A stretch of 64,000 bases of DNA from the NCBI GenBank assembly GCA_022925895.1, contig JAKSYS010000267.1, positions 1 through 64,000 on the forward strand. The letters run 5' to 3'. Of this stretch, positions 25,963 to 55,817 are shown piece after piece (position 1 is the stretch's first letter; the number at the start of each line of letters is the position of its first letter). The notes under the pieces were generated by a model. It made no database searches. It worked only from the letters and a program-made list of their open reading frames with translations, and was not told the origin of the DNA. Both the position numbers and the translations under genes were made by a program. This stretch comes from Fragilaria crotonensis (taxonomy: Eukaryota > Bacillariophyta > Fragilariophyceae > Fragilariales > Fragilariaceae).

Positions 25963-26656
25963 GTCGGTGAGTTATATGAGTTTACCGAAAGTTGTTTGCT
26001 CGTACAAACGCACAAACTTCGAGGCTTTATGACGTAGTCGAGAATCGATCAGCAATAGGAAAGTACTCCTCAGTTCAATGTTTCAGTAGTTGAATTTAGG
26101 ATTGGGCAGTCACGCTACTGTTCACCCAGATTGCCCATTTATCGTACCATTCGTTACAAGGAGACGATTTAATATCTTCGATAGGTCTAAAACAACCCTT
26201 GGATGCATTTCCAGACTCCAGTTCTCCCAATGACCAGCCCTTCAACTTCTGACCCGAAGTGGACCCCGCAACAGCATGAGCGGGACTCGATTCCAGATGA
26301 AACACACAAGTCGGTGAGTTAATTGAGTTTACCGAAAGTTGTTTGCTCGTACAAACGCACAAACTTCGAGGCTTTATGACGTAGTCGAGAATCGATCAGC
26401 AATAGTAAAGTACTCCTCAGTTCAATGTTTCAGTAGTTGAATTTAGAATTGGGCAGTCACGCTACTGTTCACCCAGATTGCCCATTTATCGTACCATTCG
26501 TTACAATGAGACGATGTAATATCTTCGATAGGTCTAAAACAACCCTTGGATGCATTTCCAGACTCCAGTTCTCCCAATGACCAGCCCTTCAACTTCTGAC
26601 CCGCAGTGGACCCCGCAACAGCATGAGCGGGACTCGATTCCAGATGAAACACACAA
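25963..26656. repeat. 347-bp direct tandem duplication
   Basis: 25963-26309 and 26310-26656 are nearly identical (only a few scattered differences seen by eye). The unit begins GTCGGTGAGTTA and ends GATGAAACACACAA. It spans the 3' part of the membrane-protein gene at 26443-27219 plus its downstream flank, so the second half of the last six-cysteine module is now present twice. High identity implies a recent event. Confidence 0.92.
26096..26309 (-). pseudogene. Duplicated 3' fragment of the six-cysteine membrane-protein gene
   Basis: This is the coding part of the extra unit of the 347-bp tandem duplication. It encodes about 70 residues of the module (CVFHLESSPAHAVAGS, then GQKLKGWSLGELESGN) and the same terminus, ending TAQS instead of TAQF. 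It has no membrane segment and no start of its own, so it is probably not expressed as a separate protein. It could act as downstream UTR or as a recombination partner of the intact gene. Confidence 0.8.
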
Positions 26657-27219
26657 TACGATCCGCACCATGTCCACATGCCGAGGCTGTCCATAAGGTG
26701 GGATACATCCAAATTCAAGGAATCGTCGGGCTTGGGAACACCAATGAAGCAAACACTTGGATCCTCGACGGAATTCTTCCAGAACGAGTCATTCTTCCAG
26801 TTTGCGTCATTTTTGCATCGATCGTCAATTTGCTTGGACATGCTCGCCAGGGCTTGAGCGCGGCGTGCGACTTCCTCTTCTTCAGGAGAGGGCGTTGAAA
26901 GTGACGACGTAAGCGGCGACGATTCTTCAGCCGGGGGCGTCGAAAGTGACGCAGCCGGCGTCTCGGTGGATGACTGAGCTTTTAAGAACGCAAACTTGTA
27001 CCATTCAGGAGGAACGACGAGGAGAAGCACGGCAATCACAAGTTGGACATAAAGACAATACGTCGCTACTTTGCGAAACGATTTGGGTTTCTTGTAGCGC
27101 GGGTTTTTGTCAATGTTGTCATCGTTGTTCACGGAATATGGAAGCACCGTGGTCTTCGCCATCCCTTTCTTTTTGAGCCTGCGTTGCCAGAGAGACGATT
27201 CGTCGTTGCGTTCATTCAT
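26443..27219 (-). CDS. Six-cysteine Trp-rich membrane protein, member A (one module)
   Basis: Start chosen at ATG 27219 because MNERNDESSLWQRRL aligns with the starts of the two paralogues (MKERVDESSIWQRKL and MKERDEET); the longer frame has only a GTG. It encodes 258 aa: a basic N-tail, one membrane segment at ~51-69 (VATYCLYVQLVIAVLLLVV), a Ser/Thr/Pro/Glu linker (80-120), then one module with cysteines at 135, 157, 185, 189, 227 and 239. Signature pieces are SFWKNSVEDPSVC, CGSYCVFH, KGWSLG, KGCFRPIED and SHCNEWYDKWAIW. Sequons NAS and NSS suggest glycosylation. The predicted topology is type II with the module outside or lumenal. Three disulfides are likely. Function unknown; I recognise no described domain. 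Confidence 0.85.
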   Translation of the reverse strand: MNERNDESSLWQRRLKKKGMAKTTVLPYSVNNDDNIDKNPRYKKPKSFRKVATYCLYVQLVIAVLLLVVPPEWYKFAFLKAQSSTETPAASLSTPPAEESSPLTSSLSTPSPEEEEVARRAQALASMSKQIDDRCKNDANWKNDSFWKNSVEDPSVCFIGVPKPDDSLNLDVSHLMDSLGMWTWCGSYCVFHLESSPAHAVAGSTAGQKLKGWSLGELESGNASKGCFRPIEDITSSHCNEWYDKWAIWVNSSVTAQF

Positions 27220-27535
27220 GTTCCTTATTCTTGAGATTATATCTTCCTCCAACTGCACATCCTCTCTGTGTATGATACATCGATGATCGAAATATCACGA
27301 AGATGATACGCGTATCGCCTTCTTGGAGCATTTACATTATGTATAATATATCTGTATTGGATTATTCGAATGTTGTTTATGCTTTATCATACTCCCAGTA
27401 GGAAATACTTCTTGGTATGCATAGTGTGCGTATGACAAGCATTCATCCACATTCATCCGCACTTTTTTCATATGCGTCGTATGCATACAGTATAGAATAC
27501 AAGGCAGTAATGGCCCTCCGACGAAATTTAGTGAC
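27220..27535. other. Upstream flank of member A and left boundary of the retroelement
   Basis: AT-rich promoter-side DNA of the minus-strand gene, with no gene seen. TATGCATACAGTATAG-type words lie at about 27478-27496. The retroelement with split direct repeats begins at 27536. Confidence 0.4.
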
Positions 27536-27865
27536 CAATAGCGGCAGCGGAGACGTGAGGTCCGATACACCACTGCCGCATACGTCAGCACATTACACAT
27601 CGGCCCTCCGGAGTACGTTCGAGAAGAAGAATTTTGCCGATACCACAGCGTACGTGGTAATTCCGGTAGGCAGCGAAGATCCCGGCATTTGAAGAGAGGA
27701 ACGCTACCGGCTCGATGCACATTGTTGCTCAAACCAGGTTGAACGAACCAGTTTAGGCAACACGAGACTACCTGTATCAGCACGAAGAGTCGTCGAGCCT
27801 GCTAGTAGCCAGGTCCCGCGACTTAGTGTAGGCAGACAGCACTCACGCGAGTCTACGTTTAAAAG
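27536..27865 (+). repeat. Split direct repeat A1
   Basis: 330-bp left terminal repeat beginning CAATAGCGGCAGCGGAGACG and ending CTACGTTTAAAAG. It is repeated at 33541-33870. Confidence 0.95.
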
Positions 27866-27903
27866 ACCTCAGGTGAGCACAAGTATCTGCTTAGGCATTC
27901 AAC

Positions 27904-30123
27904 ATGGCCCATCCTGATCCAGGTGCCGCCGAAGGCATCCCGCCCGCCTTGCCTGTTGGTTTAGCACCCGTGGTAGGGCCGGCCGGTATGCCAGGTGGAC
28001 TGGTAGCTGTTGGAGCAGCGGCCCGCACCTACAGAGAGTACTACGCAGAACGAGGCCACATCCCGACACCAGATCGGGTAGCCGGGTATCTGGCGGGATA
28101 CCGGTTCACAGACGTCGGGGGCATCGGGGTTCCAACGCCTGCTGCTCTCCGAGATCAAACAGTGACGGTAAGCGACCGCCAGTCCTTGGCCTTCTTGTGT
28201 TTGACGCCAGGAGTCGATGGAATGGGCGAAGTGTCTATCATCCACCGGTTTGTTAGGTACATGGATAGTCCAGGTGATGACCCCAGTGGCTTTCACGACC
28301 GAGTGCTAGGATTAATGGGGGACATACTCCCTCATCAGTACCCGGTGGTCGACATTCCAAATACCGCCTTTCACTTGGTGACCGCTCCAGTACGCGTACC
28401 TACGGTTGGGGCGATGACAGCCTTGTTGCCAACTTGGGAAAATCCGCAAGTGGCACTCGGGCCATTCGCTGAAGAGGATGCAGAGACAGAGGTTATCCGG
28501 CCTCGTTATCTACAGCTTGTTCCTGGGCGACTGGCCACCATTTTGGTTCATCGCCGACGCATCCGAGCCAAACAAGCCTACCAGGAGCTCGTTGGCGCTA
28601 TTCAAGCTGAAGGAGGCTTGGGCGCCTACAGCGATGTGGTCATCTGGTTGCGCGCAGCCTGTACGGCCCGAGGGGGTGTCGGCCCGCAAAACACCGTCCC
28701 GAGTGTTATGCACCATTTCGCGCCCTTGCATTTGCCACCGGAAGTACACGAGTACGTCGCGTCGAAAGTACAGAGCGATCTACCGGCACTGGCACATCGC
28801 GGGGAAGTGGCGGGGACAACCGAGGCTTTAGTGGGAGCGATACGAGCACTCACTGCCCCCCGAGGTCGGTCTGCGGAGGGTGGCGAGGGTGACACAGAGC
28901 CAATCGCGCGCGAGCCCAAGACCGTAGCGGATACATACCGCGAAACATATCGCACTTTGTTGCGTTTCGGTAATGTCGACAGCATTACGGAATTAGCCCC
29001 AGTGTGGAACCGCTTGGCTAACTCTCACAAGAGTGAACATCATACAATCTTGACACAGGAGTTCCACAAAGTGTGCATGTCACGCGGCCTGTCGACCGAA
29101 TACTACGCGCCCATCGTAACGACATCGCTCAAACAAATGGTGATTGGCTTCCAGTTCATTGGGCATGGCCCGGATGACCTAACGTCCGGGTGCCAACCTT
29201 TTCTGGTCACTTACTCTGGGAAGGAAGATCACTACATGGCAGTGGCCGCCGCCGATGTGGGCAACCAGTTGTCCCAAGGCGCGCAAAACGCCTCCCTGTC
29301 GGATTATCGCGAGATACGTGCCAAGGAAAAGGTGAAGTTCCCGAAGGACGTCCTGGACGCATCTATTACATTGTGTCGTTTTGCCGTTTTGTGTCAAGTC
29401 CTATTTCAAGGCACCGGCCCGGCGCACCCGCTGGTCGATGCCATGTGGGCAACAGCGTTGGGACTGCAGAATCTGGCACCGTCGATAACGGCGCAGTACC
29501 AAGCCCTGATGCGCATGCCTGGAATTGCCCCGACATACTACGCGCGGGTGATTCGAGCGATCCAGTTGGGAATCCATGACTACTTCCAGCAAGTGGCGGT
29601 TAACGTCGTCGAGAGCGTAGTGGGAGTGGAAGTGCCCAACTTCCGAACCATGTTGCAGGAGCTCAAGCGCGGGACCTTCCACCAGTCCACTAACTGGATT
29701 CCAATCCCAGACGAGTATTTGGGAAGCCCTCCACCTCGCAGTGTGAGCACAGCGGGGAATGTTAGTCGCGGGACTATGGCGGGGTCGGCCGCTACCAGCA
29801 TTACAGGTGGCTCGGGAGGAACGACTGTGTCGGCTCTAACGCCGGAAACGACCCGGGCCGAAAGCGTGGCCAGGGTTGCGAATCCGGTAGAGGACAGTGA
29901 GTTCCGCTCGCTGACGTTACGCGCAGGGGGGACACGCAACATCCTGCGAACACACCGCCCCCCAGCCAATGACGCAGGAAACGAGCTCTGTGTGGCATGG
30001 TGGACGCGAGGCGGCTGTTATGCCAACTGCGGACGTCGCAACACCCATCAGCCGTTCGCGTCGGCCGACGAACGCACCAGGCTCCTCACCTATGTCCGCC
30101 AGCACCTGGTGGACCCCGCCTGA
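27904..30123 (+). CDS. Gag-like protein of the tyrosine-recombinase retroelement
   Basis: 739 aa, starting 38 bp after repeat A1. The N-terminal ~40 residues are Gly/Ala/Pro-rich; the middle is helical (RETYRTLLRFGNVDS, FQFIGHGPDDLTSG) and a fossil copy of that part is found inverted near 35 kb. The C-terminus carries a zinc-knuckle-like Cys/His cluster (CVAWWTRGGCYANCGRRNTH), consistent with nucleic-acid binding. Gag proteins of this order package the RNA. Part of a mobile element; the frame is whole. Confidence 0.85.
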   Translation: MAHPDPGAAEGIPPALPVGLAPVVGPAGMPGGLVAVGAAARTYREYYAERGHIPTPDRVAGYLAGYRFTDVGGIGVPTPAALRDQTVTVSDRQSLAFLCLTPGVDGMGEVSIIHRFVRYMDSPGDDPSGFHDRVLGLMGDILPHQYPVVDIPNTAFHLVTAPVRVPTVGAMTALLPTWENPQVALGPFAEEDAETEVIRPRYLQLVPGRLATILVHRRRIRAKQAYQELVGAIQAEGGLGAYSDVVIWLRAACTARGGVGPQNTVPSVMHHFAPLHLPPEVHEYVASKVQSDLPALAHRGEVAGTTEALVGAIRALTAPRGRSAEGGEGDTEPIAREPKTVADTYRETYRTLLRFGNVDSITELAPVWNRLANSHKSEHHTILTQEFHKVCMSRGLSTEYYAPIVTTSLKQMVIGFQFIGHGPDDLTSGCQPFLVTYSGKEDHYMAVAAADVGNQLSQGAQNASLSDYREIRAKEKVKFPKDVLDASITLCRFAVLCQVLFQGTGPAHPLVDAMWATALGLQNLAPSITAQYQALMRMPGIAPTYYARVIRAIQLGIHDYFQQVAVNVVESVVGVEVPNFRTMLQELKRGTFHQSTNWIPIPDEYLGSPPPRSVSTAGNVSRGTMAGSAATSITGGSGGTTVSALTPETTRAESVARVANPVEDSEFRSLTLRAGGTRNILRTHRPPANDAGNELCVAWWTRGGCYANCGRRNTHQPFASADERTRLLTYVRQHLVDPA

Positions 30124-30192
30124 CGGTCACGCCAGGGGGAGGCCGCTGCACTCGACTATTCGCAGCGTCCGCCACCCTGGCCACCTGACTCT

Positions 30193-32520
30193 ATGGCGAC
30201 AGGAGGAGAGACCCCCGCGGTCGTGGCGACGACGGGGCACAAACGTAAGGCTGCGACAATCTCGACAGCGGAGCACACGCTTGGTAAGTTCGCATCGGAG
30301 TATGCTGCAGAGTTGAAATTGAAAGGCTGGCGGCGGTTTGTGTCTGAGGCACGAGGAACATCAAACATCAACGCAAGGGCTAAGCATGTGCCCCACAATG
30401 CTGCCAGATTGCTTGGACATCTGGAGAAACGAGGCGCTAGTGTCATCATGACAACGGAGCCATGGTCCCCGGAACGGCGCGACCGAGCGGTGAGGCGGGG
30501 ATCACACAAGTCCTCACATGGCGAGATCGCGTTCGTCAGTGAGGAGATGGTGAACTTTTGCCGCCAAGGGTATTGGGTGGTGTTGCCGTACTCCGAGGTG
30601 GCCGACCTGCCGCACCTGCGAATCTCTCCACTGGGAGTCGTTCCGCAGCGCGACCGGAGACCGCGCCTTATAGTTGATTACTCGTTTTCCGACGTGAACA
30701 CGGAAACCTTCCAGCTCGCACCGAAAGAAGCTATGCAGTTTGGACGTGCCCTTCAACGGGTGTTCACCACTATCGTTCACGCCGACCCTCGGTATGGGCC
30801 GGTGTACTTAGCAAAGATTGACGTCGCCGACGGCTTTTATCGTGTGTGGATACAGATAGACGATGTCCCTAAGTTAGGCGTCGTGTTGCCCACTGCACCT
30901 GGTTGTCAACCACTGGTAGCGTTCCCGTTGGCTCTACCCATGGGATGGGTAGAGTCCCCACCGTATTTTACTGCACTCACCGAAACGGCCTGCGACCTTG
31001 CCAACGCGGCACTCCAAGTGTGCCCAACGCTGTCTCGCCTCAAGCAGGCCCACCGGCTGGAGGCAGTGGCCAACACACCTCCTCCCGACGCCGTCCCTTG
31101 TACGCATGCGAAGCAGACTGGCACGTCGCGGTCAACACTCAGCACTCACGGTCATCCCCCGGTGGCGTCGGTCGACGTTTACGTGGATGACTTCCTCCTC
31201 CTGGCGCAGACGCACGCCCAACGTCAAAAAGTCCTGCGCGCCACTCTTCAGGCCATCGACGCCGTTTTTCGCCCGCTCGAGTCGTCCGACCCTGCGCACC
31301 GGACCGAGCCGGCATCTATCAAGAAAATGCTCAAAGGTGATGCCCACTGGTCCACCTGGAAGCGCATGTTAGGTTGGGACCTCGACACGATCAACGCAAC
31401 GCTACATTTGCCCGCACATCGTCTCGACCGCCTTCTCCACGTCCTGTCGTGGATTTGCCCACCTCGCAAACGACTGTCCACCAAGAAATGGCATCAATTG
31501 TTGGGCGAACTACGGTCCATGGCGCCGGCGCTGCCTGGTACCCGCGGGCTTTTCTCCGTCCTCCAAGAGGCACTGAGTCGAGGCGATCGCCACCGGGTTC
31601 GCCTCAACCCCGACGTGTACGCCACTGCACATGACTTTCGCGTTTTGGTCAATGCCGTCGCAAGTCGGCCAACCCGTCTCCACGAACTGGTCCCCACGCC
31701 TCCTTCCGACATTGGCGCGTGCGACGCGTGTCGCATCGGCATGGGCGGCGTGTGGTTCGATGCGATCGACCCCACAGCCGCGCCAGTGCTCTGGCGGTTA
31801 CGTTTCCCGCCACACGTGGTCGCCGCGTTGATTACGTCGGACAACCCCCACGGCTCGCTCTCCATCTCTGACCTAGAGCTCGCCGGCGTCATTGCACATA
31901 AAGAGGTTCTCGCCACGCACCGAGATATCGCGGAGCGCACGATCTGGATTGCCAGCGACAACCGCGCTGCAATTTCGTGGTCCAACAAGGGCTCTTCCAC
32001 GTCCCTTGCGGCTCGCGCTCATCTCCTGCGTTACAACGCCCTCCAGCAACGCCGCTTCCGCTACATTGCCCGTCACCACTACATCCCCGGGGATGTCAAC
32101 GTGATGGCGGACGATGCCAGTCGATTGTGGTCTTTGTCCGACGACGCGCTTCTCACATATTTCAACGTCACGTATCCACAGGCAGTCTCCTGGCGAATGC
32201 TCACCCTTCCGTCCGCGACGAGTGCTATCGTGATTGGTGCGCTCTCCAGGAAGCCACGTCCATGCGAGGATCTGCTCAGCGTAGTGCCAATGCTGCCACA
32301 GCGTGGGAACTCTGGCAGACCTTCTGTTCCAGCCTCGGCCTCGATGCCCGACACCTCCCTTCACGCGACCCCATCCCTCTACTCCAACTGTATGCCCAAC
32401 GGTACCGCACAGGGGCCATTGCTCCCGGGCGTCGGCCTGTCCGATCTCGCACGGTGGAGGACGCCCTACGAGCGGTGGGCCAGGCGTACACAGGGATGGG
32501 GGCCCCTGACCCTCGTTTAA
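30193..32520 (+). CDS. Reverse transcriptase-RNase H of the tyrosine-recombinase retroelement
   Basis: 775 aa. The RT palm is visible as KIDVADGFYRVW, FPLALPMGWVESPPYF and the YVDDFLLL active-site strand. The thumb/connection region follows, then RNase H with DACRIGMGG, ISDLELAGV and IASDNRAAISW. This DIRS-type RT groups with LTR-element RTs but is paired with a tyrosine recombinase instead of an integrase. Its 3' end overlaps the recombinase frame by about 540 bp, as often in this order. Confidence 0.92.
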   Translation: MATGGETPAVVATTGHKRKAATISTAEHTLGKFASEYAAELKLKGWRRFVSEARGTSNINARAKHVPHNAARLLGHLEKRGASVIMTTEPWSPERRDRAVRRGSHKSSHGEIAFVSEEMVNFCRQGYWVVLPYSEVADLPHLRISPLGVVPQRDRRPRLIVDYSFSDVNTETFQLAPKEAMQFGRALQRVFTTIVHADPRYGPVYLAKIDVADGFYRVWIQIDDVPKLGVVLPTAPGCQPLVAFPLALPMGWVESPPYFTALTETACDLANAALQVCPTLSRLKQAHRLEAVANTPPPDAVPCTHAKQTGTSRSTLSTHGHPPVASVDVYVDDFLLLAQTHAQRQKVLRATLQAIDAVFRPLESSDPAHRTEPASIKKMLKGDAHWSTWKRMLGWDLDTINATLHLPAHRLDRLLHVLSWICPPRKRLSTKKWHQLLGELRSMAPALPGTRGLFSVLQEALSRGDRHRVRLNPDVYATAHDFRVLVNAVASRPTRLHELVPTPPSDIGACDACRIGMGGVWFDAIDPTAAPVLWRLRFPPHVVAALITSDNPHGSLSISDLELAGVIAHKEVLATHRDIAERTIWIASDNRAAISWSNKGSSTSLAARAHLLRYNALQQRRFRYIARHHYIPGDVNVMADDASRLWSLSDDALLTYFNVTYPQAVSWRMLTLPSATSAIVIGALSRKPRPCEDLLSVVPMLPQRGNSGRPSVPASASMPDTSLHATPSLYSNCMPNGTAQGPLLPGVGLSDLARWRTPYERWARRTQGWGPLTLV

Positions 32521-33311
32521 ATGCGCATGGGCAGGTGGATTTCCGCCTCAGCGCCATGTACCGCGCCTGGGCGGGCGCTGACGATCCGCCGTCACGCGTC
32601 AAGCCCCTTCCACTCCAGCTAGTCGCCCATGTGTGGCATCATGCCTCGCTGGCTGCTACGCCACGCGCGCTGGCTGCCGCGGGTTGCCTAACATTCGGTT
32701 TCTTCTTCCTGTTGCGGCCTGGCGAGTACTTGGGCACCCCGAATCGCACGCAATTCGTTTTGCAGGACGTACGGTTCTGGATTGGCTCCCGCGCCATTGA
32801 CCACCTCACCTGCCCAGCTGCCGACATCCTCGCTGCCACCTTTGTCACCCTTACATTCACCCGCCAGAAAAACGGGGTCCGTAATGAGACTGTGGGGCAT
32901 GGACGCTCTGGGCATGCACACCTGTGCCCCGTGCACTCGCTCGGGCTCCGCGTCCTCGCCCTGCGCAGCGACGCTGCTACCGCCGAAACTCCCCTCAACG
33001 CCTTCCGTGCCACCGCACAGGCCCCTTGGTCCTACATCCTCCCGTCCGACCTCACCTCAAGCCTTCGCGCCGGCTTAGCCTCACACCCTGACCCCGCCTA
33101 TGGTCCCTCCGATGTCTCTATCCGCTCCACCCGCGCAGGCGGCGCTATGGCGCTCCTTTGCGCGGGTGTCGACTCCGATCGCATCCGGCTGCTCGGCCGG
33201 TGGCGCTCGGACGAGATGTATAGGTACCTCCACGTCCAGGCGCAGCCCGTCATGACTGGCCTGGCTGCCGCCATGCTTCGGGGCGGCTCCTTCCGGCTGT
33301 CCCCTAACTAA
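31977..33311 (+). CDS. Tyrosine recombinase of the retroelement
   Basis: About 440 codons, overlapping the RT-RNase H frame in another phase; the functional start is probably well inside. The C-terminal half has the tyrosine-recombinase fold: AAGCLTFGFFFLLRPGEYLG (box I region with the first Arg) and, near the end, RSTRAGGAMALL and LLGRWRSDEMYRYLH, which contain the second Arg region and the Tyr. It cuts and joins the circular DNA intermediate into the genome. Confidence 0.88.
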   Translation: MVQQGLFHVPCGSRSSPALQRPPATPLPLHCPSPLHPRGCQRDGGRCQSIVVFVRRRASHIFQRHVSTGSLLANAHPSVRDECYRDWCALQEATSMRGSAQRSANAATAWELWQTFCSSLGLDARHLPSRDPIPLLQLYAQRYRTGAIAPGRRPVRSRTVEDALRAVGQAYTGMGAPDPRLNAHGQVDFRLSAMYRAWAGADDPPSRVKPLPLQLVAHVWHHASLAATPRALAAAGCLTFGFFFLLRPGEYLGTPNRTQFVLQDVRFWIGSRAIDHLTCPAADILAATFVTLTFTRQKNGVRNETVGHGRSGHAHLCPVHSLGLRVLALRSDAATAETPLNAFRATAQAPWSYILPSDLTSSLRAGLASHPDPAYGPSDVSIRSTRAGGAMALLCAGVDSDRIRLLGRWRSDEMYRYLHVQAQPVMTGLAAAMLRGGSFRLSPN

Positions 33312-33364
33312 ACTTCCCTTCCACGCTTTCTGCTCCCACCCTACTTTGCCTTTGGCCCCTTGGG

Positions 33365-41060: not shown

Positions 41061-42225
41061 TCAGGCCTCCTTGAGCTGTTTCACCCAGTCTACCCAATGT
41101 TCGTACCATTGGTTGCAATGAGAGAATCGTACGTCAGGGATAGGTGTAAAACAGCCCTTCGTCTCATTACTCCCATGTTCTCCCAACGACCAGCCTTTCA
41201 ACTTCTGACCTGGAACAGCATGAAAGGGGCTCGATTCCTGATGAAACACACAATGCGATCCGCACTGGGTCAGCGTGGCGAGGCTGTCGACAAGATAAGA
41301 AACACCCAATTTTAAGGATTCTTCGCCCTGGAACATCAGCGACGCAAACAGCTGGATCGGAGACGGAATTCCTCCAGTACGAGTCTTTAATCCAAATTGT
41401 ATTATTGTTGCATCGACTGTCAAACACTGCTGGAATGCTCGCCAGGGCTTCAGCACGTCGTTTGGCCTCAGCTTCAGCTTCAGCGCGGCGTTTGGCCTCG
41501 GCTTCGGCTTCAGCGAGGCGTTTGGCCTCTGCTTCCGCTTCAGCGAGGCGTTTGGCGTCGGCATCAGCACGGCGTTTGGCTTCCTCTACCTGTTCTGCAG
41601 ACAACCCAGGTAGTAATGGTGCTTTTTTGTTAAAGTCCACAATCCAAGCCTTCCAATCGTCGAACCACTTGGAGCAAAAATGAGGGCGAACGTCGAGGAA
41701 GGGTTCCCAACATCCGTTGGATCCTTTCCCGGAGCGGTCGATCAACGCCCAACCAGTGACTACAGCATTTGTGCTCGCCGCTGCATCCGCATGAAAGGCA
41801 CAGTATGCCCCACACGGAGTTCTGAAGTCGATGGTCTCCTGTAGTTGTTGGGCGTCCAAACCTTTTTGTTGCAAATCGACAACAGGGTCACCACGTTTGG
41901 GAGGGCAGAGTCGAGGGCTCTTCACTGACGTCTTCCAGAGGATGTCGCTTGTCCAGAGGGAACTATTCTTGCAGGCCAGTTCAATCGGAGTCACGATGGA
42001 TGATTCGGCTTGAGAGTGCGTGAACAATTCATAGGCAACGATGAGGAGACCTAGTGCCAAAAGTTGGAGATAAACAGAGTTCCAGTCGAACGAGAAGGCG
42101 AGTTTCCTACCGCGCTGCATGTTCTTTTTCTTCATGGAGTATGATGGAAGCGACATGGCCTTTGCAGGACGATTTGTTTTGAGCTTGCGCTGCCAAATAG
42201 ACGATTCGTCGACGCGTTCCTTCAT
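41061..42225 (-). CDS. Six-cysteine Trp-rich membrane protein, member B (two modules)
   Basis: Start ATG 42225 (MKERVDESSIWQRKL). Membrane segment at about 49-66 (NSVYLQLLALGLLIVAY). Module 1 has cysteines at 85, 107, 138, 142, 172 and 184 (CGAYCAFH, TGWALIDRSGKG, NGCWEPFLD, FCSKWFDDWKAW). A charged helix of about 50 residues follows, built from AEAEAEAKRLAEAEAEAKRR repeats. Module 2 begins RCNNNTIW. Near 41325-41328 one extra base shifts the frame; the other frame then continues the module (ESLKLGVSYLVDSL, CGSHCVFH, KGWSLGEHG, HCNQWYEHWVDW) to a stop at 41061. I treat this as one gene of about 390 aa with a one-base indel, possibly an assembly error. Sequons NSS and NET lie in the modules. 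Function unknown. Confidence 0.8.
41455..41590 (-). repeat. 30-bp coding minisatellite in member B
   Basis: Four to five tandem 30-bp units (plus-strand core GGCGTTTGGCCTC then GCTTC repeats) encode a ten-residue AKRLAEAEAE-type repeat, predicted to be a single charged alpha-helix between the two modules. The paralogues A and C lack it. Confidence 0.85.
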
Positions 42226-43227: not shown

Positions 43228-45072
43228 TTAGGCCATCATGTCACAAACCAAATCATTGAATATCGTCGCGCCCAGGGCCTTAGTGCAAATATCGGCAAAA
43301 TTCTCATGGCTACGACACCAATGAGCGTTGACGATGCGTGCGGCGATGGCCTCGCGAACATAGTGGTACGATATGGCGATGTGCTTCTTTTTTGAGTTCT
43401 CCTTCAGGAATCTCAGCGCTCTGGATAACGCCGAAGTTATCGCCATACATATCCGTAGGTTTCGTAACCGGAATGCCGAGGCAATGGAGCATATATCGTA
43501 TCGAAATCGCCTCTTCGACGGCAGAACGCATTGCGACAAATTCGGCACAATACGTACTCGTGGCAATGCACCCTTGGCGTTTACTCTGCCATATCACCGG
43601 CGTGCTACCCACGAATACGATGATACCCGAAATGGAACGTCGCGTCACATGGTCGTGTGCGTGGTCCGCGTCGAAGAAAACCGAGGTTTCCAATTCCGAA
43701 CCGTACGCTTCAGGCATATCCGTACCGACGTCCTCAGTCGCGTCAGGGTAATCCTCCAGAAAATCCGGGTGAAACGACTCTGTTCGCAACTCGTCGTCGA
43801 CAAGTAATGGTCTTGAGTCTAATACAATACGTCGGTTAGGGTTCTTTTTGAGATAACCAAACAGGTGCAAAGCGAGCTCCAAATGGTGTGTCCGTGGGGC
43901 TGCCGAGAACCTACTAAGGGACGACACGGCAAACGAGATGTCGAGTCGACCAATAGTGCATGCCCACTGAGCCATGCCGATCAACATCTGATAACGTCGG
44001 GTTCCCAATTCCGACAACAGATCGCTATCGTCCAGCTCAGGGTGGCATCCTTCCGGAAGGGGAGTGCGATGGGTCCACAAGGTGCCATCCAGATCGAGTT
44101 CGGACTCAATCCGACGAATGCATTCCTTGATGTATGTCGCACAACTCAGGACCCACGCCTTCTCTTCAACCGAGAAGTTATAATCATTCCCAAGATAATA
44201 GGATGGGGGTCCTATCGACTTCAAAAGGAATGCAGCAGAGATCTGTTCTTTCCAACGTGATGGGTTTCGAGCGACGATCTTGAAGTCGTCAACATGGGTG
44301 CAAATGTAATCATATCCATCGCGATCTTCTCGCTTTCGCATCCAGACATCTCTGTCGTAGCGCGAAGCAGAGAATCCCATGTTGCGTAGAAAGTCAGCAA
44401 AATGAGCTCTAAAAGCCCTACTCGATGACCGTAGACCATATAAAGCCTTCTTGAAAAGTACGACAGAGTCCTCGCGTTCTTCAAATTCCGGTCCAGCTCT
44501 AGAGAATACTTTCTCCATGCATTCCGCCGTGATAAAAGCATTACCAATGTCACCACATAGGACCTCAAGACCGTCGCGATGAGCAATCAAATCGAGAAGT
44601 CGGACACTGATACCTTTCACGACAGTGGAACGGGGGTTTATCCCTCTCGGATCTACCATGTGGCCTCCAGCGACAAGTCGGGCTTTACGTCGTCCGTCCT
44701 GTTTAACCTCAAAGATCATGGACAAGGTAGTCCACTGGTAGTCGGAGCTGGGTTTGTAGTCTGGGGCGTGGAACTCAAAGCAGTTTAGCGCGAGGAGGGA
44801 CGCGACTTCTTTACGTATAGCGTCTGCCCAGAGAGTATTTCCCGCCGCCCCGTCCAGTTCAAATGCATGACGGACGTTACGCGGCACCTCCACCCCATAC
44901 TTAACTTGAACTGGTCTGCTGATTCGCCCTGGCTTCTTCCGTTTACGAACGCCACCAGTGTTCGGTGCCGTAACAGCAACTCTGCGAATCAGACGAGTAC
45001 CGTTCATCAATTTGGTCGGCAAAACCAAGTGTGTACGCTGCTCGTCACGCTCGACGTAACCACGTGCGGAAC
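43228..45072 (-). pseudogene. Copia RT-RNase H part
   Basis: Typical copia motifs: FEVKQDGRRKARLVAGGH, EVLCGDIGNAFITA, FKKALYGLRSSSRAFR, the active-site strand YICTHVDDFKIVA, and RNase H pieces (VFFDADHAHD, IWQSKRQGCIATSTYCAEFVA, ENFADICTKALG near the end). It is separated from its integrase part by the nested Ty3 element. Confidence 0.9.
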
Positions 45073-45461: not shown

Positions 45462-48400
45462 CTCGCTTCCCTAATTGGGCGGTACGCGTTCTTTATATGG
45501 TGTTAGTCGACGTATGTTGACACGTTCATTGACAATGCCACGTTGAATGCGTACTGTACCATTAGCATAGGTTTCAGTAATCCGATAAGGTCCCGTACGT
45601 GGGGCGGATAATTTGGAGATCAGTCCTGGTTTTTCTAGTAGGACTTTTTCGCCAACACGGTACTCGTGTTCAATGCGTTTAGCATTTTCCTTTTTATTAT
45701 TGGCGTTAATAGTATCTTGCTTACGTTGTCTTATCCTAGCCCAATCCGTCTTTAATTGGATGGGCAACAACATGTCGCGTCCAAATACTAACTGTCCGGG
45801 TGTAGCATCTAATGTAGTATGTACTGTACTACGTATTGCCCACGCAGCTGCACTGGTCCCCAAGGGTCATTCGCATCGAGTTCTTTTTGTTCGAGTTCGA
45901 ATGTCCGAAGTGCATTACCCAGTACTTGATGTACTCGTTCTACAATACCGTTTGATTGTGGGTTGTAACTGGATGACGGTTTTTCTTTCATACCATAATT
46001 CTCGCACATTTGTTTGAATTGTGCTTTGAATTCGGAACCGTTATCATACCCTATATGTTGGGGTCGTGGATATCTCGTCAACCACGTATTATTAAACGCT
46101 TCCATAACAGTATGTGCGTTCTTATCTGGTATTGCTATGACTTCGAACCATCCTGTTACGGGATCAATCATAGTCAACGCACGAAGTGTATGCGTAGACG
46201 TTGGAGTACGTACAACGTATGGTCCAATCAAGTCTACGTTTACACGAGACCAGGGAAGTTCTTCAGCTTCCTTAGGAGGTAAGTGTCCATACTTCTTCCT
46301 TTGTTTCTTAAATAGTTGACACGTACGACACGTCTTACAGAATGTCTCAACGTGACTACGTAATTTTGGCCACGTACATGTTTGTCGTATCGTTGCTTCA
46401 GTGCGTGATTCGCCTGGGTGTGCTAGATACTCATGATACCAAGCCACTACGCGTTGTTGAAGTTGAATAGGAATATATATTTTTTCCTTGGTACGTAATG
46501 ACCTCAACTCCTTCAATTGTTTTGGTATTGAAGTTCTGACTTTTTGATTTCGTACTTCTTCGTTTAAGCTCATTATCTAACCGTTGGTATTTAGCGATTA
46601 GCATAGGACTTAACGGAAAGTCAGTTTCTTTAACGTCTGTTTTTGTCATGAAGATGTAAGCCATCGTATCATTTGTAGGCTCTGTTGGTAACTTCTCATT
46701 GAAGTTCGCATCTAATCTTGACAAGGCGTCAGCAATGACGTTCTTTTCTCCTTTTATATGTAGAAAGGTAGGTCCAAACTCTTCTATCAGGAGTCTCCAT
46801 CGTATTATACGATCAGTGGACATTTTCTGATATAGGAGATTCTTATGATCGGTATGTACTATCAGTTTTTGACCTAATAGTATATTTTTGAATTCCTTAA
46901 GTGTTTCTACTATGGATAACAGCTCTTGTTCACCAGTCGTGTAACGTTTTGAGCGCTGTTAAGTTTCCTACTGTAGAAAGCTAACGGACGGTCATTTTGC
47001 ATTATGACTGCTCCCAGTTGATAATCACTGGAGTCCGTATAAATGTGAAAGTCTTTTGAGAAGTCAGGATAAGCCAGTAATGTCTCTCGACTTATTATGG
47101 CCTTAATGTCTTCAAATGCTTTCTGTTCTTTATCGTGCCAAATAAATTTAGCTTTGGCAGAACACAGCGCCGTAAGCGGTGCTAGTATGTGACTTCTACG
47201 TCGCCACATGTCACGGTAGTAATTGATCATACCTAAGAAACGTCTTAACTGCCGTTTGGTAGTTGGTGGTGTCAGCCGCATAATCGCTTCCACTTTCTTA
47301 GGTTGAGGTTGGATACCGCGACGAGTAATCCAATATCCTAAGTAATCAAGCTCGGTCACAGCGAACGAGGATTTACGTAGGTTAACGGCAAAGCCAACAT
47401 CAGTTAGGCGTTGCAACACGAGTTCAACATGCTGAAGATGGTCCTCGTAGGAACCTGCTGTTGTAATCAGTATGTCATCTAAGTACGCACGCACATTAGG
47501 CAAATCGCCCATAATGTCATTAATTATGGCCTGAAAGATGTCAGGACTGCCATTCAAACCCATAGGTAGGCGACAGTAGCGATATTTGCCCCAGGGTACA
47601 ATCATTGTACATAGATAGCTGGATTCTTTATCCAGGACAATATGGTAGTAGCCCATACTTAAGTCCAGAGCCGTTGCCCAATTAAACCCTTCAAGTTTCT
47701 GAAGAAGGTCTGCAATCTTGGGTAACGGGTATGGTTTACGTTTATGTACCTATTAAGTACACGAAAGTCCGTTAGGACTCGAACGTCACCAGTCTTTTAG
47801 GCTGTATGAGCGTTGGTGCCGCCCACTCAGTCATTGCACTTCGTTAATACTCCTATGTCACATAAACGTTGAATTTCTTTCTTCGTTGTTTCCTCGTAGC
47901 ATTTTGGTACAGGAACGGACGAGCGTGATACGGCTTCTCATCCTTACTTAAGGGCCGTAGTTCGAGATGTACAGGCGGTACATTGAGTACGCCCAGTCCT
48001 CCACTAAACAACTTCGGATACTTTCGTAGCGAACGTACGAGTTGTTTTTGTTGATCGTTACTTAGGTGCGTATCCATGTGTGCGTAGTCATCCAGATCTA
48101 ACGCACTATAGTCTGCATCCAGTATACGTTTCTGCCTCGCTTCTGCTTCCTTGAGTACCGTAGGTTCGATACTGTGGTAGTAGATAGCTGTAGCATTCTG
48201 TAGATCGGATATTACGTGTTTTCTTTCATGGGAATTTCTACACCTTCCCATACTATCCGTTGTGTATTGAAATTAATTTCGATACCCAATTCTGATAGTA
48301 AATCTGCACCGATGATCATGTCATACTGTGCATTCTTGCATAACGTATGTGTGTCCTCGTGACACACCCATTGTACTATCTTTGACATACTAAACTCGGG

Positions 48401-49926: not shown

Positions 49927-50310
49927 TGCCCTACGCGCGAAGTAATCAGTTTTATTTTGGAGGCTAATTTGTAGCTAGTTTTAAAGGATTAATAGTTGCA
50001 CCTTATTAAAAGTTATGAGACTAGTTTTTAAAACAAGAGAGCAGTCCCATCCTTGGTGGGATTGGACTGTTCTCTTTCATTCATCTAGGAGACTCAGTGA
50101 GTCTCCAAGAGATGTCAGACAGTTCTCATTCTACTGTTGTACGGTTGTACTGTTGTACAGGATCAGTGTTCTATTGTTGCACTGTACTATGGTATTACTA
50201 GTCTACCGGTATATCCAAGTACTATACATGGCCATTGTATTGTAGTACTGGATACTAGTAATATAGTATACTGTATCGCACTACGCTAAGGGCACGTGCG
50301 GTGTACTGCA
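49927..50310 (-). repeat. Ty3 LTR, right copy (5' LTR on the minus strand)
   Basis: 384 bp, matching 45078-45461 without visible difference. It is followed by the target duplication GGAGC at 50311-50315. Confidence 0.95.
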
Positions 50311-50315
50311 GGAGC

Positions 50316-52636
50316 AATCGTCGCACAACTCGGGTATAAGTACGTTTGAATTGGCGAGCCCAACGAGTGAAACGCCCTCCGCTATACTTAGCATCTGGAC
50401 TCCCAACTTTATGTCGGAGAATGTAGTCCGCAGCGGCCACTGGGAAGTCCCTGCAGGCCGTTGTAAATGGAACAGTTGTAGTTTCGTCAGTCTTCCATAG
50501 CAGTCGGAACATAAGGACGCCGTCAATCCACTCATGACCTACAATGGCCTCAAACAAGTCATCATCCACTGGGGTATCCGCATCCCGCTGAAGCTGATGG
50601 ACTACGTTCTCGAGAATGTCGGGCGTTACACTCTCGTCCTCCTGTGTAACTGGAACACAAACAGATGCGCCGGACGGAGTACTTGAAGACTCTCCCCAAA
50701 CGTCGTCACGCCCAGGATCTGCACCGATTGATGCAGTCGTACCCGTCGCCACTGGTGGTCCCACAGGGGGTGTGTTTGAAGTATGCAAATCGGTGACCTG
50801 GACCAAAACTGCGTCATGTGCCAATCGAGCCGCGTCGAGAACTGGTACAGTTTCCATGATCGTAGTCTGTCCCTGGGGCAGCGGAATGGCCACAGGGTCA
50901 ACGTCGTCAGGAAACGATGGCACTGATCCGTCGGACACCAAAGAACGAGGTCGTTTCGTAGGTGGACCAATCACCTCACGAATACCATCCTCAAACGGGT
51001 CGTCGAGCACGTCGTGCGAAACATCGGACGAATCCACAGCCCCCCATAACTCCTCTGGAGAAGTAGGTACAACCGACAGAGCATCGGTGACCTCCTCTAT
51101 GTCTGTGGCAGGCGGATCGTCCAAAATAGTGGTTTCATCGTTTTTATAAAACGTTAACGAATGTCCACTAGCCGCAGTCTCCTCTGGAACGATGTCCGGA
51201 GCATCCTCTCGTGGATATCGAGGCCGAACTACAGAACGGGCCAAGACCTGCGGCGTTGAAATTGCATTTTCATCTTCTGGCAACGCAAGGATAAGAAAGC
51301 AGAAAGCGTCTCCGACACTCGGTGCCACTCCCAAGAAACGACCCTTTAACATCTTCGCTCTCGGGAACGCCCTGCGCGGTTGGTAATACCATACCGGCTG
51401 CCAAAAGATAAAACGAAACACACTTATATCAGGGCGTTCGCCCCAATGGCATTCGTGTGGTGTTAACCAATTCAAACTCCTACGAGCAAGAACGGTCCGC
51501 ACCAGGCACATGTACTCTAGTGCAAAGCACCAGTACGCCAAGGGAGCGCCGGTCACCGTCAACATGTGTACCGTGGCCGCTTTTAAAGCACCACCTCTCC
51601 GTTCCGCAAGGTTCTGATTAGGATGGTGAGCTTCGGTGTACTCAGACTTGACGGATAGACTCTCCAAGTATGAGGTCCATCTCTTACCCTTGAACTCTGG
51701 AGCATTATCCGATTTCATTCTTGTCGGTGCTCCACATTCCGCAACCATTTTTGGAAGAGTAGTCGGGCTCTGAGACCGCCGTCGCATTAAATACACCACA
51801 TCCCAACCAGTCCGTTGAAACGAAAACAAGTTCCAGCACGTATAACCACGCACAGAAAGAATAGAAGAAAAGAAGGTGTCGACATAACACAGATCATTAA
51901 GTCGGCGGACCTTAAGCTGGGGAAGACGAGTCTGGAAGTGATCCCTCATAATCTCCCGAGTCTCCGATTCCACTGTAGGAACAAGTTGTGTTGTCGCGTC
52001 AAGAGTACGCGAAACAACGTTGTCGGGAGCAAATCCCAGGCGTCGTTTCCATTGAGATGTTGATCCCTCAGAGCCCATAACACGGCGCCGTGAATGTACC
52101 CGTGCAAAAGGTTCATAAGGTGCGCTACCATCCGTGATTGTCACGTTCGGGAGTCGTCGAAGTTCGTCCTCCGTTATAGGGAACACTTCGAAGAAACACT
52201 TAGTGCCATCAAAGAAGAAAGGCATCTTGATGTCTCGGAAACGAGCCATCTGTAAACCAGGTTTCCCGTCAATGTCACGTTCGCACCGAGCGCGGTCGTC
52301 GATCCCATTGCGAGTATCCCGTAAAGACTGGTGAACCGAAAGCAGTGATTCAGTCTGTGCCGGATTCGAATCGTAAAGGGCTTCATGAGCATATGCCGCG
52401 TAGCATCGCCCATCCTCGTCACGTAGTTTGGCCACCGCCGAAACCACCGGAAAGGATTCGCCCACGTTTCGTCCTGCAAATGCCCCAGTCATCGTTACTT
52501 CCCTCCCCGTACGCTCAAGGATTGTCCAAACGCTTGTCAACAGGGTCTGATCGTTGCCCGTGTCGGACACAAGAATCTGTGTGGAGGAATCGACGGTTGA
52601 GATATCGTCGTTGATACGCGTCACGCGACGTAACAC
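50316..52636 (-). pseudogene. Copia protease-integrase part
   Basis: About 770 residues: a protease-like DTGNDQTLLTSVW near the N-terminus, then the integrase core (VAECGAPTRMKSDNAPEFKG, HHPNQNLAERRGGALKAA) and the linker region rich in Asp/Glu/Pro/Thr. The part downstream continues across the nested Ty3 element at 43228-45072. Confidence 0.88.
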
Positions 52637-52663
52637 TCTCGCCGGCGACTCCTCCGCAACGAG

Positions 52664-54208
52664 TCAGGTTGAACGCTCGGTCACCACTCGTCTGCTCTTC
52701 TGAAGACGGATACGCTTGCGCGGTGGGGCTTCATCGCCTCCTTGCGCTGGGGTTTCACCCGCGTTAACCGAAGCTTCGGTTGAACCAGACTCTAGGATCG
52801 GAGCACCAGAGCTAGCACCCGAACCTGTCTTCCTTGATTTCGTAACCGGGCGATATGTTTCGATAATCGTATCAAAGGCATCATTTAGCTGCAACTGCGT
52901 TTCACCCTTGTGGGCGTCGGTCCTCCAATCAAGCACCAATTTGAAAAGGGCTGCACCGAACGACTTCTTCCACGAATCCGGAAGTCGTGGGATCAACCAC
53001 TTCCTGTTGTCTGGTGCTGGACCAGGCGTCGGTTGTCGCTTGCCCGTCTTCGAAGCGGTTGCACTCTGTGCACGCCTCGAATAACGGGTCGTAGACGCGC
53101 CGTCTCCAGCGACATTCGAAGCCTGATCCTTCATCATAAGAGACGTATCCCTCTCGCGAATCTCAGTAAGGATTTGATCCAAACTGGAATTCGGTTTTTG
53201 AACTATCGAATCGCGAACGATTTCGAAGTCATCATCCTGAATCGCGACCAGGAGGAGAGCCCTAAGAGTAGCTGTGTCGTCCGCGAGCTGAGCATTGTTC
53301 TTACGCAGGCGCTGAAGACAATCTCGCACATCGGAAATGAACTTTGTCGCCGTGTTATCCGGAGTCAGACGCAAGTTAAGGAGGCGTCGAATATCGAACA
53401 ACACAACGTTGGCTCGATTGAGAGCTGTATTATAATAGCTCTCAAGGCCAGACCAAAGGACAACTGGATCCAACTGCTTGTCATCAAGCATGGATTGAGC
53501 GATGGATTGTGCTTGGCCGCCGTGAACCGCACCCCGCAACGCATAGAACACACTCTCGGAGACTTCCGGGTACTTATCTGTCCAAGTCGTTTCATCTAAG
53601 AAACGCCCAAATCCTGCGGTTCCTAAGATGTTGATCGTCGACTCCCGCCAAGCAAAGTAATCCTCGTCGTGTCCGGAGAACTTATCCAATGTCGGAACAG
53701 CTTTCTTGTCGAAAATCTGAACCGAGCGTCGCGCAGGCGAGCTGGCATTGGACGACGTGGACGGCTTCGAATGGTGGAGTGACGTGACCGTAGAGAGAAT
53801 CTGGGTCATAGTCGTGCTCTCCGTCAATTCGCCAATTCTGGCGTAGTCCACTATATACCCAAGCTTCTTCACGATAACAGGGGCCGTAAGCTCCTCTGGA
53901 ACAACACCGTTCTGAACGAGGGCCGTGGAAATGTCCGCCGACGTAAACACCATCAAATCACACCAATCCCGCGCCTGCCAATGCTCAGAGAACAACGCGT
54001 CGATACCGGCACGAATAATCCCACGAGCTTGTTGGGTTGGAGCGAGTAGGGAGACGATACGGTCCAATAACTCCGGAACGAAACGGTCAATTCGAGGCGG
54101 AGCAGGATCCTGCTCAACACCAGGAGTTACCGCAGCGAAGGGAGTACCTGGGATCGGAGATGGTGGAGCGGACATGGGCGAAAAGAGCGGAAGAGTTAGC
54201 AAAAGCAA
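52664..54208 (-). CDS. Copia Gag protein
   Basis: 514 aa beginning near the 5' LTR. It has the retrotransposon Gag form (LDKFSGHDEDYFAWRESTIN, LWSGLESYYNTALNRANVV, LLNLRLTPDNTATKFISDV) that assembles the virus-like particle. The C-terminus is basic (PPRKRIRLQKSRR). No zinc knuckle is seen, which is common in this group. The frame looks whole. Confidence 0.85.
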   Translation of the reverse strand: MLLLTLPLFSPMSAPPSPIPGTPFAAVTPGVEQDPAPPRIDRFVPELLDRIVSLLAPTQQARGIIRAGIDALFSEHWQARDWCDLMVFTSADISTALVQNGVVPEELTAPVIVKKLGYIVDYARIGELTESTTMTQILSTVTSLHHSKPSTSSNASSPARRSVQIFDKKAVPTLDKFSGHDEDYFAWRESTINILGTAGFGRFLDETTWTDKYPEVSESVFYALRGAVHGGQAQSIAQSMLDDKQLDPVVLWSGLESYYNTALNRANVVLFDIRRLLNLRLTPDNTATKFISDVRDCLQRLRKNNAQLADDTATLRALLLVAIQDDDFEIVRDSIVQKPNSSLDQILTEIRERDTSLMMKDQASNVAGDGASTTRYSRRAQSATASKTGKRQPTPGPAPDNRKWLIPRLPDSWKKSFGAALFKLVLDWRTDAHKGETQLQLNDAFDTIIETYRPVTKSRKTGSGASSGAPILESGSTEASVNAGETPAQGGDEAPPRKRIRLQKSRRVVTERST

Positions 54209-54224
54209 ACAAAAGACTATTAAT

Positions 54225-54333
54225 CGTCATACACAAGTAAGAGTGACTAATATAGGATTAGATCTTCCTTCTGTGTTGGCACGGTGAGTTACGTGGCTGG
54301 GACGGGAGCAGGACAGACGACACTATCCTGACA
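54225..54333 (-). repeat. Copia LTR, right copy (5' LTR on the minus strand)
   Basis: Matches 43044-43151; followed by the target duplication CTGCA at 54334-54338. Confidence 0.85.
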
Positions 54334-54338
54334 CTGCA

Positions 54339-54746
54339 TACTGCATTATTGCATTGCAGGAGTGGTACCATGATGGTCGAATCCAAGCGACACGCGTGTC
54401 TTTGCAGAGATAATAGATAGGTTGACTACTAGCGATTGGCGATCCATTTTAAGCTACAGTCCACGGAGCACAAGTTGGCAGTCCAAAATCAAGGTCTTTA
54501 CACCGTTACAAACAGCCTTCAACGAAAAGAAATCAGACGACTAGTACCTGCATCCATGATGACCGACCAAGTCCAGCGGTACGTTGGCGAACACGGTGTT
54601 GATAAGTTAGTGCTCTTCGTGTCCCATAGTCCAATGTTTTGGCACCTGCACAGATCCGGCTCGTGTGCAAGCTCAACCAAGGTTTGAAAGGCAGTCAAAA
54701 TCGTTCCTTTAGTAATCCGAATTTTTTTACAGCGTATGGATTGAGA
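54339..54746. other. 3' flank of member C
   Basis: Non-coding. Its last ~60 bases (AATCGTTCC, GGATTGAGATTAGGAT) match the 3' flank of member B, evidence that the two genes arose by duplication with their flanks. Confidence 0.5.
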
Positions 54747-55817
54747 TTAGGATTGGCCCGCCACGGTGCTGTTCACCCAGATTGCCCATTTTTCGTACCA
54801 TTGGTTGCAATGAGACGACGTGATATTTTCGATAGGTCTAAAACAACCCTTCTCTGCATTTCCTTTTTCAAGTTTTCCTAATGACCAGCCTTTCAACTTC
54901 TGACCTGCAGTGGCCCCTGCAACAGCATGAACGGGACTTGATTCCACATGAAACACACAATACGATCCGCACCATGTCCGCGTGGCGAGGCTGTTGATAA
55001 GGTGGGACTTTCCTAATTTCAACGATTCGTCGGGCGTTGGAACGCCGATGTAGCAAACAGCTGGATCCTCTACGGAATTTCTCCAGAACGAATTCTTCTT
55101 CCAACTTTCATGGTTTTGGCATTTCCCGCCAATTTTCTCGGACATGCTGGCCAGGGCTTGAGCGTGGCGTTCGGCTTCCAGAGAGGGCTTTGAAAGCAAC
55201 TTGTTGGATTCCAGCATCCAAGCTTTCCAATCGTCGAACCACTTGGAACAATCATGTGTGTGCATGTCAAGGATGGGTTCCCAACACCCTCGGGATCCTT
55301 TCCCGGAGTGGTCGGTCAACAACCATCCCACGACTACAGAATTTGCGAACGACAATGTGTCCGTACGAAATGCGCAGTATGCGCCACACGGGGTTCTGAA
55401 ATTGATGGTCTCCTGTAGTTGTTGAGCATCCAAACCTCTTTGTTCCCAGTCCACCGCAGGGTCACCACGCTTGGGGGGGCAAAGTCGAGGCCTGTGCGCT
55501 GAGGTCCTCCAGAGGGCGTCGCTGGCCCAGGCAGAACTATTCTTGCAGAACAATTCAATAGATGTCTCGATGGATGATGGGGCTTGAAAGTAGTCGTACC
55601 ACATCGACTCAACAATGAGTATCACCGCCAGAAAAAGTTGGAAATGAAGACAATTCGTTGCTAGCTTGCGAAATGATGATGCGCGTTTCCTACCGCGATG
55701 GTCAAGGTTAAGGTTGCCTTTGTCGTCCATGGAGTATCGACGCGACCTGGTCTTCACTGGTTCCTTTCGCTTGAGCCTGCATGGCCAGGGACACGTTTCT
55801 TCATCGCGTTCCTTCAT
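54747..55817 (-). CDS. Six-cysteine Trp-rich membrane protein, member C (two modules)
   Basis: Start chosen at ATG 55817 (MKERDEET) to match the paralogues; an in-frame ATG at 55934 would add 39 residues. The frame is intact, 356 aa. Basic N-tail, one membrane segment at about 52-70 (LATNCLHFQLFLAVILIVE), module 1 with Cys 91, 113, 144, 148, 178 and 190, and module 2 with Cys 233, 255, 283, 287, 325 and 337. Spacings are 22-31-4-30-12 and 22-28-4-38-12, so the two modules are homologous. Shared marks: CGxYCxF, GWxL, GCxxP, and a closing HCxxWYxKWxxW type block. Topology is predicted type II with the modules outside or lumenal. This is the best reference copy of the family. No described domain recognised. 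Confidence 0.88.
   Translation of the reverse strand: MKERDEETCPWPCRLKRKEPVKTRSRRYSMDDKGNLNLDHRGRKRASSFRKLATNCLHFQLFLAVILIVESMWYDYFQAPSSIETSIELFCKNSSAWASDALWRTSAHRPRLCPPKRGDPAVDWEQRGLDAQQLQETINFRTPCGAYCAFRTDTLSFANSVVVGWLLTDHSGKGSRGCWEPILDMHTHDCSKWFDDWKAWMLESNKLLSKPSLEAERHAQALASMSEKIGGKCQNHESWKKNSFWRNSVEDPAVCYIGVPTPDESLKLGKSHLINSLATRTWCGSYCVFHVESSPVHAVAGATAGQKLKGWSLGKLEKGNAEKGCFRPIENITSSHCNQWYEKWAIWVNSTVAGQS

Follow-up and report, generated by a model that had tools for sequence, protein, structure and literature searches.

Membrane-anchored proteins with a six-cysteine module in Fragilaria crotonensis: predicted members of a sulfotransferase-type family without the enzyme domain

Introduction

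Three minus-strand genes, here called A, B and C, lie on a contig of the diatom Fragilaria crotonensis (GenBank assembly GCA_022925895.1, contig JAKSYS010000267.1, positions 1 to 64,000; this stretch of 64,000 nucleotides is the window), and each codes for a single membrane segment and one or two copies of a tryptophan-rich module with six cysteines. The question arises to which larger family such proteins belong, and what a membrane-anchored protein built in this way could do for the cell.

Layout of the three genes

The features of the three loci are:

25961..26656, minus strand: tandem duplication of 347 bp, 2 copies, 97%, comprising the 3' half of A's module and the downstream flank
26099-26308: extra partial copy of A's module, inside the 347-bp tandem duplication
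26443..27219, minus strand: gene A; its basic N-tail leads into a membrane segment (best 19-residue stretch 51-69), followed by a stalk rich in Ser, Thr and Pro, a single type 2 module and the stop
26461..26844, minus strand: module 2 of A, cysteine spacing 22-28-4-38-12
41061..42225, minus strand: gene B; an N-tail and a membrane segment precede module 1, which an EA-rich linker joins to the frame-split module 2
41064..41321, minus strand: module 2 of B, second part, in a different frame, spacing 4-33-12
41329..41439, minus strand: module 2 of B, first part, spacing 22
41447..41568, minus strand: 30-bp minisatellite, 4.1 copies, encoding the charged EA-rich linker of B
41632..41997, minus strand: module 1 of B, spacing 22-31-4-30-12
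54747..55817, minus strand: gene C; its N-tail leads into a membrane segment (best 19-residue stretch 52-70), and modules 1 and 2, joined by a short linker, precede the stop
54765..55148, minus strand: module 2 of C, spacing 22-28-4-38-12
55206..55571, minus strand: module 1 of C, spacing 22-31-4-30-12

The initial annotation of three genes holds for A (26443-27219) and C (54747-55817), which are open reading frames without interruption and both stop soon after module 2, but not for B, which is not continuous through 41061-42225: its frame switches within module 2, where it is net 2 bases short relative to C at about position 41,328. The basic N-tail followed by a single hydrophobic segment was borne out by hydropathy in all three proteins, the best 19-residue values being 2.53 for A, 1.85 for B and 1.77 for C, each starting at residue 51-52. 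Together with the large C-terminal part, this is the layout of predicted type II membrane proteins. The surrounding DNA contains retroelement frames with Pfam matches between B and C, retroelement-like frames without a Pfam match between A and B, and, downstream of C (50255-54208), two long retroelement-like frames that likewise have no Pfam match.

The six-cysteine module

The cysteine spacings reported initially, namely 22-28-4-38-12 for A and module 2 of C and 22-31-4-30-12 for module 1 of B and of C, were all recovered, and the spacing of 22 in module 2 of B was found in its first part, before the frame switch. When the six frames of the window were searched with a widened comb (22, 25-35, 4, 27-43, 12), exactly four places were found, which are the four modules of A, B and C, and 200 residue shuffles of the window's 132 open frames that reach 100 amino acids or more gave 0 matches. 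The six cysteines would presumably be paired in disulfides.

That modules 1 and 2 are one duplicated unit, as had been proposed, is supported by the local alignment of the two modules of C (score 162 versus 29.6 +/- 5.1 in 1000 shuffles) and by a tree built from 10 module rows (three partial), in which types 1 and 2 are separated by one branch with a support of 100/99. Judged from these sequences, the module duplication predates the split of the genes.

The modules show dN/dS below 1, namely 0.36 for module 2 of A and C (bootstrap interval 0.21-0.65) and 0.38 for module 1 of B and C (0.22-0.67), with 0 of 300 resamplings reaching 1 or more in either case. In each of these two pairs, all six cysteines and seven of the eight tryptophans are at identical positions. 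The N-tails are less constrained than the modules (0.57 and 0.68), and constraint is also weaker in the second half of module 2 of B (0.46 against C, 0.55 against A); in comparisons against the relative E (see below), dS was saturated.

No described domain could be assigned to the module, in line with the initial annotation, as neither Pfam nor PDB gave a match by profile: all 7 module rows hit 0 Pfam-A families at E up to 10, and the PDB profile search with the module found no sequence match. Two phmmer matches of C in PDB (E 0.39 and 1.9) were judged to be chance, and NCBIfam returned nothing above a cut-off for E, C and A. The AlphaFold model of module 2 of C is of modest confidence (mean pLDDT 68.6), and a fold comparison of this model gave no match. 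In the part of the literature covered by our search, no account of such a module was found, by which its absence from print is not proven.

Relatives with a sulfotransferase-type domain

Elsewhere in the genome, which its silicon transporters mark as that of a diatom, three relatives, D, E and F, were found. D (on C878) matches C with 48% over residues 30-352 and has an N-tail and anchor layout that by eye resembles that of A, B and C. In its open frame, a hydrophobic segment is followed by module 1 and, after CPECD, by module 2, from which CPACD leads on to a sulfotransferase-type domain. E (on C196) is arranged as module 1, CPECD, module 2, CPRCD and sulfotransferase-type domain, and F, also on C196, breaks off in module 1. 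In D and E, module 2 continues into the sulfotransferase-type domain within one open frame, and the two domains share 56% identity across the 207 residues that align upstream of D's frame break. The initial view of a family built solely from the module is thus not supported, since D and E carry both modules plus this domain, which places the family with the membrane-bound sulfotransferases. By sequence, A, B and C are hence members of a membrane sulfotransferase-type family that have no enzyme domain, and the module is the N-terminal, presumably lumenal, part of that family.

The C-terminal end of D is spread over three frames, and module 1 of E is net one base short compared to F, so that this assembly contains no fully intact family locus with the enzyme domain. 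As the genome searches score only the best candidates, the family as found here (A, B and C, the partial module copy next to A, D on C878, and E and F on C196) is a lower bound.

The domain of E exceeds the Pfam cut-offs of Sulfotransfer_3 by a narrow margin (27.4 bits, cut-off 27) and of Sulfotransfer_1 (24 bits, cut-off 22), and that of D, with 19.1 bits, stays under the cut-off of 27. The best PDB sequence matches of the E domain are the sulfotransferase 3rnl (3e-8) and the heparan sulfate N-deacetylase/N-sulfotransferase 1nst (1.2e-7). E retains the PAPS-loop lysine (VGAMKCGT vs IGPQKTGT) and the NP..R..S motif (NPVGRLFS vs NPADRAYS), both of which we take to have functional roles in sulfotransferases, and D has Gly at the place of the lysine and His at that of the serine of NP..R..S. 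In one alignment, and within a variable stretch of it, both E and D have Asn where the other sulfotransferase rows of the genome have Glu (7 of 8) or Gln (1 of 8). This is the Glu position of a K-E-x-x-F type motif, presumably the catalytic base, and the Asn suggests that the fused domains of D and E may not be active. Catalysis by these domains is therefore putative.

In the window itself, no sulfotransferase domain was detected in A, B or C, the best hit of a tblastn search with the domain of E against the whole window having an E of 1.3. Pfam searches gave no match at E up to 1 for A, C and the second frame of B, and the two matches of B's first frame (E 0.078 and 0.49) are far below cut-off and centred on the linker.

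Wider searches

Searches seeded by two short peptide patterns, which could miss distant relatives, found 15 stretches fitting a peptide pattern in viral contigs (module profile A1) and 75 in prokaryote genome contigs, of which 0 were confirmed in either set. Over the genome, the DNA pattern for T.CG..C.F occurs at 25 places versus 45 for the reversed pattern that served as control and is, taken alone, no better than chance. Eight of the 25 places fall in known module loci (C189, C196, C878), and among the other 17, eight (C6, C131, C314, C659, C800, C764, C199 and C126) were read by eye, none being module-like. The places outside this reading are C376, C753, C465, C795 and C802, which have the same matched letters as another listed place, and also include C12, C164, C198 and C302. 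A weak match on C230 (E 0.7) lies in a frame that is unrelated by eye, and module searches at the Pfam sulfotransferase places C501, C120, C873 and C603 gave no match.

Discussion

That the module precedes a sulfotransferase-type domain suggests that it takes part in the sulfation or handling of sugars at the cell surface. Our best guess, held with moderate confidence, is that A, B and C are type II anchored units that bind glycans or act as partners in polysaccharide sulfation. The full order of this diatom family, whose members would be type II membrane proteins in the secretory pathway, would be a basic cytosolic tail, one membrane anchor, a lumenal module 1, a CPxCD linker and module 2, followed by a second CPxCD linker and the sulfotransferase-type domain. 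A, B and C would have retained the anchor and one or two modules, with the enzyme domain missing. The anchor could keep these proteins within the Golgi or else at the surface, and the disulfide-bonded, tryptophan-rich modules might bind the polysaccharide acceptor or join enzyme subunits. The enzyme-less members would then be non-catalytic partners, or units that present the acceptor, in the sulfation of cell-wall or extracellular polysaccharide.

Alternatively, the freed module could tie the plasma membrane to wall or mucilage independently of sulfation, A, B and C being surface or wall polysaccharide-binding or adhesion proteins. We regard this as rather unlikely, although it would fit the enzyme domain not being found in the window and the stop of A and C shortly after module 2, stalks that vary in length and composition (Ser/Thr/Pro-rich in A, EA-rich repeats in B), and modules that are rich in tryptophan and have dN/dS below 1. 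However, the modules of D and E are linked to a sulfotransferase-type domain, with F broken off in module 1, and a single short membrane segment behind a basic tail is just as typical of Golgi type II enzymes. One could also imagine that the three genes are drifting remnants of a decaying sulfotransferase family, which lost the enzyme domain by local rearrangement among transposons. B is indeed out of frame, with a dN/dS of 0.46-0.55 in the second half of its module 2, a partial module copy lies beside A, F is broken off, D combines a broken frame with the loss of PAPS-motif residues, and retroelement frames occur between B and C and retroelement-like ones between A and B. Against this, A and C have uninterrupted frames from end to end, with module dN/dS below 1, even if pairwise values are compatible with constraint that ended recently. 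The small frame changes, moreover, may be long-read errors, as the likely source assembly was made by Canu on Nanopore reads with Pilon polishing (PMC9476933). Decay of this kind thus appears unlikely to us. That the sulfotransferase domain was merely overlooked, because it lies in a distant exon or was separated by assembly or insertion, is highly improbable: the domain does follow directly after module 2 in D and E, and two long retroelement-like frames lie downstream of C (50255-54208), but the tblastn search of the window had no hit better than E 1.3, D and E read from module 2 into the domain without interruption of the frame, and A and C stop at comparable places past module 2.

Returning to anchored glycan-binding or partner units as the preferred reading, one could speculate further, as a rather unlikely extension, that the module represents a novel disulfide-bonded fold by which diatoms recognise glycans, having arisen in tandem to bind the acceptor in the front half of a Golgi sulfotransferase. 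Loss of the enzyme domain would have freed it for a set of anchored proteins by which sulfated polysaccharide of the wall is bound or presented, and the fused domains might be pseudo-enzymes, with recognition conserved rather than catalysis.

Comparison with known systems

Sulfated polysaccharides are regarded as a general component of diatom walls and mucilage; little is known about how the individual enzymes are matched to the chains they sulfate. A module that is joined to one sulfotransferase subfamily and also kept alone could offer a handle on acceptor recognition, and C, intact and with two modules, is a concrete target for work on binding, structure and localisation.

The closest known counterparts of D and E, in domain and single N-terminal anchor, are sulfotransferases of the heparan sulfate N-/3-O-type (Sulfotransfer_1/Sulfotransfer_3; 1nst, 3rnl), with D below the Pfam cut-off. 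In contrast to this type, A, B and C have no sulfotransferase domain, and D and E have two N-terminal six-cysteine modules unknown to Pfam, CPxCD linkers and Asn at the usual Glu position. The other sulfotransferases of the same genome (C194, C462, C113, C13, C269, C79) belong, by sequence, to the same enzyme family as the domains of D and E, and several have, as judged by eye, an N-terminal hydrophobic segment; the six-cysteine module is absent from their frames as read by eye. Lastly, Golgi glycan-modifying enzymes can have non-catalytic partners, of which Cosmc is an example. The comparison concerns only the way of working, that is, an enzyme-free lumenal partner beside an active enzyme.

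Results

The six-cysteine, tryptophan-rich module that recurs in three genes of the window (A, B and C, each with a membrane anchor and one or two modules) had been taken for an undescribed family. The module is indeed real, conserved and present in no library searched, but it does not make up a family of unknown kind: it is one portion of a family of sulfotransferase type. When the genome (an assembly of 62.1 Mb in 881 contigs, the window being its contig C189) was searched at the protein level, three loci, D, E and F, were found beyond A, B and C, along with a partial copy of the module of A (26099-26308).

Family members in the window and elsewhere in the genome
26443-27219, minus strand: A, anchor and module 2
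41061-42225, minus strand: B, anchor and modules 1 and 2
54747-55817, minus strand: C, anchor and modules 1 and 2
Contig C878: D, one frame with hydrophobic segment, module 1, CPECD linker, module 2, CPACD linker and sulfotransferase-type domain
Contig C196: E, from module 1 onward in the order of D, through the sulfotransferase-type domain
Contig C196: F, hydrophobic segment and module 1 as far as the fourth cysteine, then a stop

E is net one base short relative to F, and its hydrophobic segment is read, together with the beginning of module 1, in a different frame from the rest. Against Pfam, E scores narrowly above the cut-offs of Sulfotransfer_3 and Sulfotransfer_1, whereas D stays under them. 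A and C are uninterrupted frames, as initially annotated; B did not hold up as an intact gene, since its module 2 shifts frame near 41,328, net two bases short relative to C. The small slips in B and E may be long-read errors.

The cysteine spacing of the initial annotation, 22-(28 or 31)-4-(30 or 38)-12, was reproduced on recounting. When all six frames of the window are scanned with a slightly widened form of it, the four matches are the known modules; shuffling the 132 frames that are 100 aa or longer 200 times yields no match. The proposed common origin of modules 1 and 2 is borne out by the pair in C, which is 30% identical and scores 162 against 29.6 +/- 5.1 for shuffled sequences. As a tree built from 10 module rows separates the two types (support 100/99), the module duplication predates the split of the genes.

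In the window, tblastn with the sulfotransferase-type domain of E gave no significant match (best E-value 1.3); in A and in C, a stop follows module 2. The modules of these enzyme-less members are under constraint: dN/dS is 0.36 for module 2 of A and C (bootstrap interval 0.21-0.65) and 0.38 for module 1 of B and C (0.22-0.67), with values of at least 1 in 0 of 300 resamplings for each. Constraint is weaker in the N-tails, with 0.57 and 0.68; for the broken module 2 of B, the second half lies between modules and N-tails (0.46 against C, 0.55 against A).

Repeats and other frames lie in and around these genes. A 347-bp tandem duplication (25961-26656; two copies, 97%), which is local and probably recent, covers the 3' half of A and its flank, and a 30-bp minisatellite (41447-41568) encodes the EA-rich, probably helical linker of B, whose length may differ among strains.

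Neighbouring frames
17591-18859: FIST_C domain, a sensory domain (39.7 bits, cut-off 28.5)
23580-25727: proline-rich frame with PDZ domain (PDZ_6), then a frame with a 21-bp repeat, 8.5 copies (GAPPPQY)
27904-33311, plus strand: three long frames, second and third overlapping, none above Pfam cut-offs; presumably a DIRS-type element with tyrosine recombinase, by its appearance
43313-45028, minus strand: RVT_2 (copia type; Pfam), between B and C
45812-47656, minus strand: RVT_1, RNase H and integrase (gypsy type; Pfam), between B and C
50258-54208, minus strand: two long frames without Pfam match, between B and C

Elsewhere in the assembly, contigs C194 and C269 carry open frames of >800 aa (L037/L038) with a tandem pair of sulfotransferase-type domains behind one N-terminal hydrophobic segment. 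Silicon transporter frames on C97 and C771 hold several matches each, 1456 aa with three transporter matches and 1008 aa with two, each in one frame. The term SIT-TRI is reportedly used in a paper on Synedra silicon transporters (PMC6114903). Together with a RuBisCO large-subunit gene on contig C881, the silicon transporter genes mark the genome as that of a photosynthetic diatom. For Fragilaria crotonensis strain SAG 28.96, 61.85 Mb, 879 nuclear contigs and 47.4% GC are reported (PMC9476933).

Discussion

Since D and E both have the sulfotransferase-type domain, the simplest history starts from an ancestor with two modules and that domain, after which the A/B/C line lost the domain, A also lost module 1, and local duplication took place. 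That the domain was lost a single time is a matter of parsimony, because the tree leaves the branching among type 2 modules open.

In E the lysine of the PAPS loop is retained, as is the NP..R..S motif, whereas D has Gly and His at these positions and the end of its domain is spread over three frames. In a single alignment of E, D and eight sulfotransferase rows of the same genome, E and D share an Asn, in a variable stretch, where seven of the eight others have Glu and one has Gln; this Glu we take to be the catalytic base of heparan sulfate enzymes. Given the lost motif residues of D and the Asn in both, enzyme activity of the D/E subfamily is putative.

A, B and C are inferred to lie in type II orientation within the secretory pathway, where the cysteines of the modules would form disulfide bonds, the modules might bind glycans, and the proteins may act as partners in polysaccharide sulfation. 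A phylogeny of algal carbohydrate sulfotransferases with two diatoms included does not use the words "N-terminal" or "transmembrane" in its main text (PMC4659905). Among known structures, the closest sequence relatives of the sulfotransferase-type domain in the PDB are 3rnl, a sulfotransferase entry, and 1nst, a heparan sulfate N-deacetylase/N-sulfotransferase.
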